NCBI GenBank assembly: GCA_030595835.1
Contig: JAUVLG010000022.1
Coordinates: forward strand, 1 to 35,825
Length of the DNA: 35,825 nucleotides
Origin: Candidatus Eiseniibacteriota bacterium
Lineage (GTDB): Bacteria > Joyebacterota > Joyebacteria > Joyebacterales > Joyebacteraceae
Direction of reading: 5' to 3'
In this document: one piece after another, positions 1-6,167 of the stretch
Layout of the letters: each line of letters opens with the position of its first letter
Numbering within the stretch: position 1 is the first letter of the stretch
Translations under genes and position numbers: made by a program
The notes under the pieces: model-generated
What the model was told of the DNA's origin: nothing
What the model saw: the letters and a program-made list of their open reading frames with translations, nothing else
The model's database searches: none

Positions 1-2920
1 GCGCGGGGTTGGGCGCGCTCTGATGCAGCACGGGGCGAAGCCCGACCGCTTCGATATCGATGCCCGTCCCGGTCAGCCGCAACACGTAGTACTCCGCCCT
101 CTCCAGATTGGCGTTGCCGTTTCCGGCGGGAGCCTGATCGCTGAGCGCGGCTCCGTCCGCGGTGCCGTACCCACCCACCGCGATCAGGATCGAGTCCGGC
201 ATGGAACCGTAGAGCGCCTCGATATCGAGTGCCCCCTCTAGACAGGTCCCGCTCGCCAGCACCGCACTGGTGGAGTTCATCACGTTTTCGCCCGAATCGA
301 ACCACCCGCTCCAGTCGTTCGACTCCTCGCTGCCCAGAAAATGGTCCCAGCCCGCGACCGTACCGGCCTTGCCCCAGGGCGCTCCCTGCGAGGCGGACGA
401 ATCCTCGTCAACGAGGATGAAGTGGTCCAGTCCCGACGTCGCGCCCACACCCTGAGTTGCCACGTAGAGCCACGCGCCGTCGAAGTCCACGTGAAGCGCG
501 AGCTCGGCGCCCGCACCCACTAATGTAGCCTCGGCGTCCAATGCTCCGTCCATCTCGTAGCTCGAGCCGCTGCTGCCACCTGTGACCGTCACGCCCCAGT
601 CGGCGCCGCCGTTGTTGTCCCAGAGCCCCCCGCCGTCGTTGAAGACGAACTCAACGGAGGCCGCCGCTACGGGCACCGAATACGTGTAGCTCCACCCTCC
701 CTCACCCGCGTCCCAGACCATTGCCGGGTCCGGCGAGATGACGTCCTGCCAGCCGCTGTGACCCACGTGGATGTGGACCGGGTCGGTCACGGCCGGCAGC
801 ACACCGCGGCAATCAAGATCGTAGTAGATCGTGACCGTCGCGCCTGCCGCAGGCTCCACGGGGTCCCACCAGACACAGGTGTCGGCGGGTGCTCCCCCAC
901 CGTTTCCGATCCAGACGTGCTGGATAGGCGAGCGTTTGACGTACCCGAGACTGTCGGTCGCCTCCACGTAGTAGTCCAGGAGCACGTCCTCGAAGCCGGT
1001 CATGTGCGCGTAGTACTCGTCCGCGATGTACTCGGGCATCACGATGAAGTCGATACCGGGATCGTTGTGGAAGTTCCCCGCCGGGAAGTCACGCCACGTC
1101 ATCTCTACCGTCTGCCAGTTCCCGACGCCCGGGCCACCGGCGTAGGTCTCGTTGTCGTCGTCGGACATCGGGTTCTCGCCGTTCGCGTCCTCGCGGTACT
1201 TGAACTCCACCGACGCGAGGCCGGACACGTCGTACGCGAACGTCCAGACCCAGAAGTCCTGGCTCATCACGGCGCCCGCGCCGCCAGGATAGCCCCACAG
1301 CGAGCCGCCGCCACGCCCGCCCGGATTCCACGGCAGCCTCTGCGGCAGCCAGACGGTCGGCGGAATCGCGTCCCCGCCCGAATCTATGACCGGGTCAGCG
1401 TGTCCCACCGCGTTGTTGCACGCGAGCGTCGCCTTGATCTCCATGTCGAGCGACGTGCCGTAGTACATGTACCCGCTCTCGTAGCCCGCGAGCAGGAAGT
1501 GCCACGCCTCCTCGACGGCGTTCGCCCCGAGCGACGGCTTCTGGATGCGCGCGGGGTCCGCCGAACCCATGATGCCCTCGGCCGTCTCCACACGGTTCTG
1601 CGCCGCCGTCAAGACGGCCCAGTTCCGCTGGTCCTCGGCCCAGCCCCCGGGGATGTCGAATCCACCGGCCCCACCTACGAGCGGCCAGTTCCAGTTGATG
1701 AACTGCGGACTCCCGAAGTCGCCGTCCGCGTTGACCCACCCCCCGTCCTCGACATGCACGACGTCCGCGGGGTCCACCGGATGGTCCGCGAGGTACTCCG
1801 CGATGGTCGTCGGTTCGTAGCCCTGCGACGCCGCCGCGTGGCTGAACTGCGTGACGTTCTCGTACCAGTACGAGTGTCCGCCCGACCACGCGTTGTCGCC
1901 GTCGTGTGCAAACAGGATGAGCATCGGTTTCGCTGGGTCGTTGTAGGACGCGATGGCGTCGATCTCGCCCGTTCCGTACAGCCCGTAGCCTTCGTTCCAC
2001 GACATGGCGTTGGCCGCGGGCACGACGACCATCTTTGATTCGGCCCCTGTTGCGGCATCGACGTACCGCGCGTAGTGCGGGCGGAAGCCGTACGGCGGCG
2101 GGACCTTGACGGTGACGCCGCGCGGTATGAATTGGTAGTAGTAGTAGCCCTGTGCTGGATTCTGCTGGTCGGCTGGATTCGGCGGGTCGCAGTTGTCCTG
2201 GTTGGCGCTGTAGGGATAGTCGGCGCACGCCCGCGAAATGTGGAGGTCCGGCACGATGACCCAATCCACGCCCTCATCCACAAGCACGGGAATCAGCCGC
2301 TCCGAGAAACAGGTCTCCGCCGGGAAGAACCCCGGCGAGTAGTCGGAGTCGCCCCACGCCTGCTCGTGCGCGTACTTTTGTATCTGCACTTCCTTGCGGA
2401 AGGCGTTCTCGTCCATCAGCGGATTGACAGCGTGGTGGTGGCCCACAAGCACCATGTCGCAGCGCGGACGCCCGCCGGAGGTCGTCCAACCGCGCGCCTC
2501 ACGGTACCACCGGTACCAGTTCGAGGAGTAGGCGCCCCCGTTCCATCCGTTGTCGCCCAGGCTCGTGATGTTCTCGATCAAGCTGCCGGCGAAGCTCACC
2601 TGCGCGCCCGCGTCCGCCAGGTCGAGAACGGACGCTATGGCATCGCGCGGGTAGTGCTGGTAGTCACCCAGCCGATCCGCCTTTCCGAAGATCTCTTCCT
2701 CGTTGTTCTCGGAATGCCCGAGCACGATGGTCTCGTACGCCGTCTCGTAGGCGCCGGGCGACCACGTGGAGTCATCGGGCCAGTAGATGGGCTGGTGCAT
2801 GTGCCAGAGGTAGGTGGTGTGGACTGGAGCGGCAGCAGCGGACATGCTCCACACGCAAATGAGCGCGAGGAGAACGACCGGGAGCCTCCAGGGTGTCGTC
2901 ACAAGATGCCATAGTCCCAT
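1..2920 (-). CDS. Secreted GH57 family glycoside hydrolase with starch-binding domain (3' end cut by window)
   Basis: The reading frame stays open for 973 codons and runs off the window start. Residues 1-31 form a signal peptide (hydrophobic core, then Ser-Ala-Ala-Ala-Ala). The GH57 motif His-Gln-Pro is at residues 42-44 in a Leu-Trp-His-Met-His-Gln-Pro context. By family pattern, Glu202 (Gly-Phe-Phe-Pro-Ala-Glu) is the likely nucleophile and Asp340 (His-Asp-Gly-Asp-Asn-Ala-Trp) the likely acid/base. Residues about 682-785 resemble a CBM25-type starch-binding module, with a Phe-Val-Phe-Asn-Asp-Gly stretch followed by Trp-Asp-Asn-Asn-Gly-Gly. Residues about 790-950 look like a second beta-sandwich. 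The last visible residues (about 961-972) read Leu-Arg-Pro-Val-Leu-His-Gln-Ser-Ala-Pro-Asn-Pro, which resembles the start of the FlgD-like or type IX C-terminal domain of FCB exported proteins. Probable role: extracellular alpha-glucan hydrolysis or transglycosylation; specificity cannot be told. The ATG at 2920 lacks a clear Shine-Dalgarno and sits almost at the predicted transcription start. Confidence 0.85.
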   Translation of the reverse strand, partial: MGLWHLVTTPWRLPVVLLALICVWSMSAAAAPVHTTYLWHMHQPIYWPDDSTWSPGAYETAYETIVLGHSENNEEEIFGKADRLGDYQHYPRDAIASVLDLADAGAQVSFAGSLIENITSLGDNGWNGGAYSSNWYRWYREARGWTTSGGRPRCDMVLVGHHHAVNPLMDENAFRKEVQIQKYAHEQAWGDSDYSPGFFPAETCFSERLIPVLVDEGVDWVIVPDLHISRACADYPYSANQDNCDPPNPADQQNPAQGYYYYQFIPRGVTVKVPPPYGFRPHYARYVDAATGAESKMVVVPAANAMSWNEGYGLYGTGEIDAIASYNDPAKPMLILFAHDGDNAWSGGHSYWYENVTQFSHAAASQGYEPTTIAEYLADHPVDPADVVHVEDGGWVNADGDFGSPQFINWNWPLVGGAGGFDIPGGWAEDQRNWAVLTAAQNRVETAEGIMGSADPARIQKPSLGANAVEEAWHFLLAGYESGYMYYGTSLDMEIKATLACNNAVGHADPVIDSGGDAIPPTVWLPQRLPWNPGGRGGGSLWGYPGGAGAVMSQDFWVWTFAYDVSGLASVEFKYREDANGENPMSDDDNETYAGGPGVGNWQTVEMTWRDFPAGNFHNDPGIDFIVMPEYIADEYYAHMTGFEDVLLDYYVEATDSLGYVKRSPIQHVWIGNGGGAPADTCVWWDPVEPAAGATVTIYYDLDCRGVLPAVTDPVHIHVGHSGWQDVISPDPAMVWDAGEGGWSYTYSVPVAAASVEFVFNDGGGLWDNNGGADWGVTVTGGSSGSSYEMDGALDAEATLVGAGAELALHVDFDGAWLYVATQGVGATSGLDHFILVDEDSSASQGAPWGKAGTVAGWDHFLGSEESNDWSGWFDSGENVMNSTSAVLASGTCLEGALDIEALYGSMPDSILIAVGGYGTADGAALSDQAPAGNGNANLERAEYYVLRLTGTGIDIEAVGLRPVLHQSAPNPA

Positions 2921-2928
2921 AATTTTCC

Positions 2929-2957
2929 AGTTTAGCACGTTGGCGGCGGCACCTCAA
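2929..2957 (-). promoter_or_regulatory. Putative sigma70 promoter of the GH57 gene
   Basis: On the minus strand, TTGAGG and TAAACT are separated by 17 bp. The predicted transcription start (about 2922) is only about two bases before the ATG at 2920, so the message would be leaderless or nearly so. Confidence 0.5.
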
Positions 2958-3399: not shown

Positions 3400-4419
3400 A
3401 TGAACGGAAGAGCGCTTCTTTGCGCCCTCGGCGCGGCGTGCCTGCTTGCCATGCCGGCACCCGCCTCCGGAGGCATTGACTTCGAGGTCACCGACGTCCA
3501 CGTGGTGTGGGGCGGGCCCTACATCTCCGTGCAAGCGGAGCTGACGGTAGCAGCATCCGGCGAGCACGAGGGTTACATCATCGATGTCGCCTACGAGGTG
3601 GACGGCTCTCTGGTAGGTACCGTACAGGTGGACCTGGGTGAGATCAACTACACCGGCGTACCGAGCCCCTGGTGCGTCGACAGCTCTTCACCCTGCAACG
3701 GGTACTGCCCGCCCATCATCGTGGACGGCCAGGTGGTCACCACCTCCGCGTGCGTAGACTGGCTGAGCGATCCCGACTGCTGCTGTGTGTATCTGGTCAT
3801 GAGCAACCCCAGCGGCCCCGTCGCGTACAACGACCAGTCCACGGCGACAGCCACGGTGGATTGCTACGACGCCGTCGACGAAACGGACGAGGCGAACAAC
3901 ACGATGACGGTATCACTCGAGCAACCCAACATCGACTTCACCGTCGCGGACTGCTCTGTTAGCTGGCAGGGCAACGAGTTCACAGTGGAGGCTGAGATCG
4001 AGGTGTCGGTCCACGGCAACCACGACGGCTTCCTGACGGACGTGGGCTTCTACTTCGACGGTTCGTACTACGGCAGCGTCGTGTTCGACGCGGACCAATT
4101 CGGGCCGAACCCGCCGACCAAGTGTGAGGACACCTACCCCGCCTGCGACGGGGCCTGTGCTCCAACCATCATCAACGGTCAGCTCACCAGCGGAAGCTGC
4201 AGCTCGTGGTTCCTCGATGACGAGTGCTGCTGTGTCTACCTCGTGGCCAAGTGCCCGGGCCCCGTCCAGCACTCGGGTCAGGAGAACTGCACTATCGTGG
4301 TCGACGACGGCGACAACGTCGCGGAGGGCAACGAGGAGAACAACGTCTACCAGTGCGCCATCGCCGGGACACCGGCGGAATCGGCGACGTGGGGCATTAT
4401 CAAGGCGCTCTACAGGTGA
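3400..4419 (+). CDS. Secreted two-repeat CARDB-like, cysteine-rich protein with C-terminal WxxIKALYR tail
   Basis: This is a 339-residue protein with a clear signal peptide (residues 1-24). The ATG is preceded by AAGGAG. The mature part is two homologous halves (about 25-172 and 173-325). Each opens with Ile-Asp-Phe-x-Val and carries a Cys-rich segment with a Cys-Cys-Cys-Val-Tyr-Leu-Val core. Each closes with an acidic Glu-x-Asn-Asn stretch, as in CARDB/APHP-type adhesion beta-sandwich domains; that assignment is by pattern only. The cysteine content suggests disulfide stabilisation outside the cytoplasm. The extreme C-terminus, Thr-Trp-Gly-Ile-Ile-Lys-Ala-Leu-Tyr-Arg, is shared with the next two genes although the domains are unrelated. 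It has its own promoter at 3049. Function unknown; a surface or extracellular structural or binding protein is the most likely reading. Confidence 0.85.
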   Translation: MNGRALLCALGAACLLAMPAPASGGIDFEVTDVHVVWGGPYISVQAELTVAASGEHEGYIIDVAYEVDGSLVGTVQVDLGEINYTGVPSPWCVDSSSPCNGYCPPIIVDGQVVTTSACVDWLSDPDCCCVYLVMSNPSGPVAYNDQSTATATVDCYDAVDETDEANNTMTVSLEQPNIDFTVADCSVSWQGNEFTVEAEIEVSVHGNHDGFLTDVGFYFDGSYYGSVVFDADQFGPNPPTKCEDTYPACDGACAPTIINGQLTSGSCSSWFLDDECCCVYLVAKCPGPVQHSGQENCTIVVDDGDNVAEGNEENNVYQCAIAGTPAESATWGIIKALYR

Positions 4420-4457
4420 TCCGCCATCCCCGGTGAGGTCTGGCTACAAGTATACTC

Positions 4458-4486
4458 TTGACCTATCGCATGATGGATTGTACAAT
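4458..4486 (+). promoter_or_regulatory. Sigma70 promoter of the first Cys-rich paralogue
   Basis: TTGACC (4458-4463) and TACAAT (4481-4486) have a 17-bp spacer in an AT-rich patch that stands out from the surrounding GC-rich DNA. The predicted leader is about 84 nt before the ATG at 4577. Confidence 0.7.
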
Positions 4487-4576
4487 GAGTATATATCAAC
4501 TAGGAACTCTGCGGTGAACAAGCGGGGCAGCTTCTCGCTGTCGTAGCATGTCTACAAGTGTAGAAGGGAGAACGCC

Positions 4577-5179
4577 ATGAAACTCGCTACGAGAACGCTG
4601 ATCCTGCTGCTCGTCGGGCTCGCGTGCATCGGGGTACCTCAACGAGCTGCGGCTGACGCGGTGTGGGGCACCGGCCTCGTCTTCTCCGCCACCGAGCCAG
4701 GCTTCGAAGGGTACTACGAGTACTGCTACCACATCTACTGGGACACCACCGAGTACGGCGGGCAGGGGCTCAGTCATTCGACCATCTACCTCGCGCTCGG
4801 CGAATGCGTCTGCGCGTGCGACCCGGGCTACTTCGGTCACCGCGTTCCAGCCGGCCTCGCGTACGGCGAGGAGAGCTGCGAGATCGACATGTACAGCACG
4901 TTCGACTGCTTGGGCGACCCCCACTTCCCTCTCGATGGTCCCACGATGAAGTTCGAACCGGACGAGACCAACTGCGAGCTGGGCGTGACCGGCTGGATGC
5001 ACGTCTGCTACTTCTCGCTCTTCCCGCCGACCGAGCCGGGCATCTTCGAGGATCACCTCGGCATCAAGTTCGGTCAGAACATACTGACGGGCGACCTCGA
5101 CGGCGTCATCCCCTTCTGCGAGTGCGCTAACCCGACCGAGCATGGGACGTGGAGCACCATCAAGGCGATGTATCGGTAG
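4577..5179 (+). CDS. Secreted Cys-rich protein of unknown family, paralogue 1, with WxxIKAMYR tail
   Basis: A 200-residue protein. The ATG follows an AAGGGAG Shine-Dalgarno. Residues 1-26 are a signal peptide ending Ala-Ala-Ala-Asp-Ala. The mature part has ten cysteines, including a Cys-Val-Cys-Ala-Cys cluster and a terminal Cys-x-Cys, so disulfides are likely. It is rich in Tyr, Trp and acidic residues and has no recognisable catalytic motif. It aligns end to end with the protein at 5559-6167, at about 80% identity over the mature region by my manual count. It ends Thr-Trp-Ser-Thr-Ile-Lys-Ala-Met-Tyr-Arg, the tail shared with the gene at 3400. Own promoter and own terminator indicate a monocistronic unit. 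I do not recognise the family. Confidence 0.85.
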   Translation: MKLATRTLILLLVGLACIGVPQRAAADAVWGTGLVFSATEPGFEGYYEYCYHIYWDTTEYGGQGLSHSTIYLALGECVCACDPGYFGHRVPAGLAYGEESCEIDMYSTFDCLGDPHFPLDGPTMKFEPDETNCELGVTGWMHVCYFSLFPPTEPGIFEDHLGIKFGQNILTGDLDGVIPFCECANPTEHGTWSTIKAMYR

Positions 5180-5295
5180 GCGAACGCAGCAGACACCTTC
5201 GGCCCAGCTACCGCCAAAGGGAAATACTGCTGAGAGGATCGGGCGCACATCACAGCGAAGTCACACCTTGCCGCTCGCATCTGACCAGCATTGAG

Positions 5296-5328
5296 ACGGG
5301 CTGCTCTCATGAGAGGGCAGCCCGTTTT
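5296..5328 (+). terminator. Rho-independent terminator after paralogue 1
   Basis: The 9-bp perfect stem ACGGGCTGC / GCAGCCCGT extends by four further pairs around an ATGA loop and is followed by TTTT. The stem core matches the terminator after the second paralogue. The rest of the 5180-5558 gap shows only the promoter at 5463-5493. Confidence 0.85.
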
Positions 5329-5462
5329 CTCATCTGCCCGACCGCGCCCACCGTCACGGCGGTCCAGAACGCACCCCAGGGCACTTCAAGGCACAGTATG
5401 CGCCATAGCGCGGATACACCTAGTTGAACGGTACCTCATCAATCAAGTTGGATGATAGCCGC

Positions 5463-5493
5463 TTGACAGGACAGAGGGTCCCAATGGTATGCT
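5463..5493 (+). promoter_or_regulatory. Putative sigma70 promoter of the second Cys-rich paralogue
   Basis: A perfect TTGACA -35 (5463-5468) and TATGCT (5488-5493) are separated by a slightly long 19-bp spacer. A predicted leader of about 60 nt precedes the ATG at 5559. Confidence 0.5.
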
Positions 5494-5558
5494 GGCTCTT
5501 GGTCATGCGGGGCCCTGCTCAACCATCGGCCTCGCTCAATCCTGAGAGGAGGCGTGCC

Positions 5559-6167
5559 ATGACTACCGCTATGCGTTTCACCCTCGCTGTCGCCGCAGTG
5601 GCGTTCCTTTCCGCGCTCTGCCCGTGCACTGCTTCGGCTGACGCTGTCTGGGGCACAGGTCTCTGTTTCGCGGCAACGGACCCCGGTTTCGAGGGCTACT
5701 GGGAGTACTGCTATCACATCGAATGGGACACGACCGAGTACGGCGGCCACGGGCTGAGCCACTCGACGATCTATCTCGCGCTCGCGGAGTGCGTGTGCGC
5801 CTGTGACGACGGCTACTTCGAGCACCGCGTTCCCGCCGGTCTCGCGTACGGCGAGGAGAGCTGCGAGGTCGATATGTACAGCACGTTCGACTGCGAGGGC
5901 GACCCCCACTTCCCTGTCGATGGCCCGACAATGAAGTTCGAGCCGGAGGAATCTAACTGCGAGCTGGGCGTGACGGGCTGGATGCACGTCTGCTACTACT
6001 CGCTCTTCCCCCCTACCGACCCGGGCGTCTTTGAGGATCACCTCGCCATCAAGTTCGGGCAGATTGTCGCGCTGGGGGACCTGGAGGGAGTGCTCCCCTA
6101 CTGCGACTGCGGCCCGAACCCGACGGAACACGGCAGCTGGGGCACGATCAAGGCCCTGTTCAGGTAG
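5559..6167 (+). CDS. Secreted Cys-rich protein of unknown family, paralogue 2, with WxxIKALFR tail
   Basis: A 202-residue protein. The reading frame is open upstream to 5424, but the ATG at 5559 is chosen because AGGAGG lies 6 nt before it and a signal peptide starts there (Met-Thr-Thr-Ala-Met-Arg, hydrophobic core, Ala-Ser-Ala-Asp-Ala). It shares the ten mature cysteines and almost all Gly/Tyr/Trp positions of the 4577-5179 protein and has one extra Cys near the mature N-terminus. Substitutions between the copies are mostly conservative, so both may be functional. It ends Ser-Trp-Gly-Thr-Ile-Lys-Ala-Leu-Phe-Arg. Separate promoter and terminator. Tandem duplicate of unknown function. Confidence 0.85.
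   Translation: MTTAMRFTLAVAAVAFLSALCPCTASADAVWGTGLCFAATDPGFEGYWEYCYHIEWDTTEYGGHGLSHSTIYLALAECVCACDDGYFEHRVPAGLAYGEESCEVDMYSTFDCEGDPHFPVDGPTMKFEPEESNCELGVTGWMHVCYYSLFPPTDPGVFEDHLAIKFGQIVALGDLEGVLPYCDCGPNPTEHGSWGTIKALFR

Follow-up and report, generated by a model that had tools for sequence, protein, structure and literature searches.

A ten-residue C-terminal tail, very probably a sorting or targeting tag, on exported proteins of Candidatus Eiseniibacteriota and related bacteria

Three consecutive genes with the same ending

The stretch of DNA analysed here (the window) is 35,825 nucleotides in length and comes from a contig of a Candidatus Eiseniibacteriota bacterium. As shown in Table 1, three consecutive genes of the window encode proteins ending in nearly the same ten residues, directly before the stop codon in each case, as the original prediction had stated. 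Read directly, the C-terminus of protein 1 is GTPAESATWGIIKALYR followed by a stop codon, and those of proteins 2 and 3 are the 16-residue sequences listed for them, each also followed by a stop codon. The claim that the first protein is unrelated to the other two was borne out. Protein 1 has CARDB-like repeats that are 39% identical to each other, while proteins 2 and 3 are paralogues with 76% identity. The Cys-rich domain of protein 2 has no Pfam match, and the predicted structure of protein 2, based on three input sequences, was unusable (pLDDT 49). The start of protein 3 was placed at an ATG with a ribosome site; the TTG at 5424, which was the listed start, lies too early and was rejected.

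A neighbouring ORF, whose GH57 label was taken from the original prediction, leaves the contig. As judged by eye, its final QSAPNPA stretch resembles the beginning of a type A CTD of the T9SS. An alternative signal thus appears to be present on the same contig as the tail genes.

Table 1. Features of the window, with positions counted from its first nucleotide
Feature	Position	Strand	Description
GH57-like secreted protein (neighbour)	2..2938	-	open-ended ORF leaving the contig at QSAPNPA
Tail protein 1	3400..4419	+	signal-peptide-like N-terminus; two CARDB-like repeats; tail SATWGIIKALYR
16-residue C-terminal signal of protein 1	4369..4416	+	core TWGIIKALYR at 4387-4416
Tail protein 2	4577..5179	+	signal-peptide-like N-terminus; Cys-rich domain of about 160 residues; tail TWSTIKAMYR
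16-residue C-terminal signal of protein 2	5129..5176	+	NPTEHGTWSTIKAMYR; core at 5147-5176
Tail protein 3	5559..6167	+	start ATG at 5559; paralogue of protein 2; tail SWGTIKALFR
16-residue C-terminal signal of protein 3	6117..6164	+	NPTEHGSWGTIKALFR; core at 6135-6164

Occurrence, anatomy and passengers of the tail

Is the tail confined to these three proteins, or is it equally common at internal positions and in cytoplasmic proteins? The genome of the window (2.85 Mb, 98.5% complete) was searched with a degenerate DNA pattern, W-x-x-[IVM]-K-x-hydrophobic-[YF]-R-stop, and with the reversed pattern as the control. It was found that the genome has 48 copies of the stop-ended tail, while the reversed control gave 0. 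When the stop requirement was dropped and two positions were relaxed, there were 60 matches (reversed, 3), and 59 of them lie no more than five residues from a stop codon. Among the 12 extra matches, three end at the stop, eight have one to five residues after the motif, and one has at least 11. Thus, the motif is terminal, yet some copies are followed by further residues. One of the 12, WGTVKTGYR at L163, belongs to a short frame and could be a chance match. No internal copies were found in the called genes of 538 kb of sampled stretches, from whose home-made gene calls the background rates were also taken. The answer to both questions is therefore negative, and the original claim survived the refuting condition that it had set for itself: there are about 60 copies, 59 of them terminal, and nearly all are on proteins with a signal peptide. 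The tail genes are clustered: 21 of 59 have another one no more than 2 kb away, where 4.6 would be expected, and some of them are thus tandem duplicates.

The consensus of the tail is [ST]-W-G-x-[IV]-K-A-[LM]-[YF]-R at the protein end. Among 45 tails, S or T occupies position -10 in 44, G position -8 in 35, A position -4 in 39, and L or M position -3 in 44. The remaining core columns are W at -9, a free position at -7, I/V/M at -6, K at -5, Y/F at -2, and R at -1. An S-P-V-E lead-in is present at -16 to -13 (P at -15 in 31 of 45, V at -14 in 31, and E at -13 in 33), and the information beyond -17 is at the background level. The W, K, Y/F, and R columns were imposed by the search pattern, while the S/T, G, A, and PVE columns were left free and thus confirm the motif independently. 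Where two tails share a residue, 2668 codon pairs are synonymous but different and 4050 are identical, and all six arginine codons are used. This variation indicates that selection acts on the peptide and that the tail is not a DNA repeat. The tail is probably an amphipathic helix. The helical hydrophobic moment of the tails at 100 degrees is 0.57, compared with 0.37 +/- 0.03 for shuffled ones, and AlphaFold predicts, with modest confidence (pLDDT 61-68), that the tail is helical in the single-copy homologue described below.

The signal peptides and many cysteines noted for the first three proteins turned out to be general. A signal-peptide-like N-terminus was found in 39 of 40 complete tail proteins, compared with 173 of 401 background genes (43%, p 2e-12), by a home-made, lenient score that is not SignalP and was applied equally to the background. 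With ATG starts only, the figures are 34 of 40 and 25%. Three tail proteins have a lipobox and are thus lipoproteins. The tail proteins have 4.0 Cys per 100 residues, compared with 1.1 for background genes and 1.05 for type A proteins, a roughly fourfold enrichment over either reference set. Their lengths are 132-479 aa, while type A frames often have 500-1800 aa. After removal of the signal peptide and the tail, the tail proteins fall into 15 groups unrelated by BLAST. The passengers include parallel beta-helices, MAM/cleaved-adhesin-like domains, CARDB, CBM20, and PPC, and several have no match at all.

Among the Pfam and NCBIfam matches of the 40 tail proteins, none corresponds to a sorting signal. 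The weak matches to rhombosortase- and myxosortase-dependent M36 models concern named protein families and do not establish an involvement of the tail. A literature search for the tail sequence returned accidental letter matches only. The tail is undescribed, in that neither a Pfam or NCBIfam model nor a paper on it was found. I consider it very probable (about 0.93) that the tail genuinely serves exported proteins as a C-terminal sorting or targeting tag. The sorting role and a receptor are what I infer, and likewise translocation and any cleavage.

Spread across phyla and the single-copy protein

In the phylum of the window, all 20 sampled genomes (one family, eight genera) have 20-69 tail copies, with a reversed control of 0 in each. 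Other named Eisenbacteria and Krumholzibacteria genomes have 7-26 copies, and a genome labelled Gemmatimonadota has 33. One copy each was found in Ignavibacteria, KSB1, Caldithrix, Zixibacteria, and Delongbacteria. In Bacteroidota, 45 of 297 genomes have a single copy, and its sequence is TWGSIKA(M/L/I)FR in all of them (control, 0). A scan of species genomes was performed with a stricter pattern; among the matches listed, the named ones are all within these phyla; one label, Acetofilamentum, looks misassigned. Thus, the tail is kept across the phylum of the window and in related phyla.

Genomes with one tail copy nearly always have it on the same protein, which consists of a signal peptide, a fibronectin-III (FnIII)-like domain, a short linker, and the tail. 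Comparison with Pfam, NCBIfam, and PDB sequences gave no convincing family and a weak Ig/FnIII likeness, while Foldseek matched the domain to FnIII-like domains. This secreted protein of about 130-150 aa was seen as a single copy at L095, L063, L124, L098, L091, and 32 further loci. In 18 aligned members, TWGSIKA(M/L/I)FR keeps all residues but one, while the members are 28-65% identical to the first one outside the tail. The near-invariance of the tail over this divergence suggests that it binds a fixed partner. The single-copy carrier is a clean protein for asking what reads the tail.

None of the neighbours of the single-copy gene is constant, and none suggests a machine. In some lineages, Maf, SpoIID-like, MATE, UPF0104, and elongation-factor genes are found nearby; the Maf and SpoIID-like genes are often close to the single-copy gene in Ignavibacteria. 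Conserved neighbours were ruled out as machine candidates because nothing is constant across lineages.

The T9SS, other routes and known C-terminal signals

SprA, the translocon of the type IX secretion system (T9SS), is present in all 28 of the tail genomes tested and in 0 of 14 control genomes. It also occurs in 229 of the 297 Bacteroidota genomes; these include every one of the 45 tail genomes, and none of the 68 genomes without SprA has the tail (hypergeometric 2.7e-6, uncorrected for shared ancestry and inflated by it). In every genome tested, therefore, the tail is accompanied by the type IX channel, and so far it is known only in such bacteria. Since SprA is common in these phyla, the co-occurrence is weak evidence for T9SS dependence, compatible with it but no proof. 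Moreover, 184 SprA-bearing Bacteroidota genomes lack the tail, indicating that the T9SS does not need it. The original prediction envisaged an undescribed tag with a cognate machine elsewhere in the genome. The terminal tag on diverse exported passengers is well supported, while for the machine the co-occurrence hints at the known T9SS and not at an unknown machine.

The genome of the window has 79 type A signals and 17 PorV-family matches, of which 8 are over the cut-off, and PorV-family matches are present in every tail genome tested. No type A signal (TIGR04183/PF18962) was found on any of 40 scanned tail proteins, and no type B or ChiA-type (type C) signal model was found among their NCBIfam matches. 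Both signals are found on beta-helix passengers (phmmer 1e-45, 9e-30, 3e-22), and the sharing of MAM-like passengers is weaker. The lack of type A signals on the tail proteins and the shared passengers indicate that the two signals behave like alternatives. Of 59 tail genes, 15 have a type A gene no more than 4 kb away, where 13.4 would be expected (p 0.29), and their proximity to type A genes thus does not exceed chance. PorV genes show no preference for tail loci either: 779 kb of such loci from genomes other than that of the window contained 4, while the PorV density in the genome of the window predicts about 5. Suggestive PorV-tail gene pairs were seen at L032, L057, and L096, without overall enrichment. 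Two similar loci, G000:C36:9131-12634 and G000:C177:23566-27047 (L276, L004, L032), have a PorV-family gene and two tail proteins, and at least three of these tail proteins are lipoproteins. They could be a shuttle-cargo pair, although PorV linkage is not general.

The leading explanation, with about even odds, is that the tail proteins follow the T9SS, with the tail as an alternative T9SS signal. The tail would be a very short sorting signal of about 16 residues, made up of the ten-residue core and the looser S-P-V-E lead-in. The tail proteins, mostly small and Cys-rich, would be exported by Sec via the N-terminal signal peptide and fold in the periplasm. The free C-terminal amphipathic helix W..IKA(L/M)(Y/F)R would then be recognised by an outer-membrane route dependent on or parallel to the T9SS, standing in for the type A domain of 70-100 residues. 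The likeliest reader would be a PorV-family shuttle, and the route would end in surface display or release of the tail protein. A bolder proposal, which I put forward tentatively and regard as doubtful, is that the ten-residue helix suffices by itself as an outer-membrane sorting code and has a dedicated reader, apart from the T9SS CTDs. It would have been born in the conserved single FnIII-like secreted protein of several phyla and later copied onto dozens of cargo proteins in the phylum of the window, Eisenbacteria, and Krumholzibacteria.

A separate outer-membrane sorting or retention machine outside the T9SS might read the tail and merely share its taxonomic range. The tail is unlike any T9SS CTD in length or fold, its cargo differs from type A cargo in cysteine content and length, many SprA genomes have no tail, and the tail genes are unlinked to type A or PorV genes. 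However, no gene turned up as a candidate, none of the neighbours of the single-copy family is constant, and some passengers are common to tail and type A cargo; such a machine seems somewhat unlikely to me. Less likely still is that the tail has no transport role and is a docking or anchoring helix that tethers proteins already in place, be it to a membrane, to a surface polymer, or to a common partner. Its amphipathic pattern with aromatic and basic residues would suit an anchor, and the near-invariant helix of the single-copy protein is as expected for a fixed partner. On the other hand, the three proteins with a lipobox would not need a second anchor, and a fixed partner would account for 15 passenger groups only if it served as a general anchor.

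Quite improbable, though conceivable for type II in tail-rich genomes, is a reading of the tail as a label for cargo of a type II or type IV-pilus-like secretin route. Distant GspD-like secretins were found in 24 of 25 tail genomes, but none of the matches passes the family cut-off, and G033, a carrier of the single-copy protein, has no secretin match at all. Secretins do not discriminate tail genomes, and type II secretion is not known to use a linear C-terminal tag. The GspD-like matches of G003, G004, G010, G011, G014, G016, G019, G048, and G051 have one in-frame stop (eight TAG, one TGA), which may result from the match overrunning the gene end or from something odd. An artefact, whether chance, descent from duplicated genes, or a DNA element repeated at gene ends, might be suspected from the clustering and the tandem duplicates. 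It was rejected as hardly credible because the reversed controls are near zero, the 15 passenger groups are unrelated, synonymous codons vary, and the tail is conserved across phyla.

Known bacterial C-terminal sorting tags are of two kinds, transmembrane-anchored ones (sortase-like) and folded domains (T9SS). If the tail is a sorting tag, a soluble ten-residue signal found across several phyla would be the smallest of its kind. It would allow a location to be assigned to many unannotated surface proteins of uncultured bacteria, and it could be used as a minimal display tag. It would also either test minimal cargo recognition by the T9SS or reveal another outer-membrane route.

The tail resembles the type A CTD (TIGR04183, PF18962) in being C-terminal on Sec-exported cargo, in the same genomes and with some passenger families in common. 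As in the tail, the last residue of type A signals is basic and follows hydrophobic ones. In contrast, the type A CTD is an Ig-like beta domain of 70-100 residues with motifs A-E, while the tail has about 10-16 residues, is predicted to be helical, and gave no TIGR04183 match in the 40 scanned proteins. The final residues of type A CTDs are functionally critical; in P. gingivalis, loss of the last two residues of RgpB leads to periplasmic retention, and the signal of HBP35 was mapped to its final 22 residues, with extensions tolerated (PMC11285876). This dependence on the CTD end parallels the tail, which seems to be read at the C-terminus with a few extra residues tolerated. One T9SS can read several signals (PMC12618676, PMC10202324, PMC11969387). 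In this respect, the tail would be like type B (TIGR04131), type C (ChiA), and the short CTDs of Prevotella intermedia, which are alternative signals used beside type A. However, type B has 150-235 residues and type C about 100, with beta-sheet folds described or predicted. Since the shortest described T9SS signals have 43-55 residues (PMC11969387), the ten-residue helical tail would be a clear departure, since all known T9SS signals are folded beta domains.

The signals of LPXTG/sortase, PEP-CTERM/exosortase, GlyGly-CTERM/rhombosortase, and MYXO-CTERM/myxosortase are tripartite, with a motif, a transmembrane helix, and a basic cluster. From its Trp onward the tail has nine residues, with no hydrophobic segment long enough for such a helix, and its distinction from LPXTG and PEP-CTERM was thus drawn correctly at the outset. 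What the tail shares with these systems is the use of a short C-terminal tag on dozens of unrelated exported passengers per genome.
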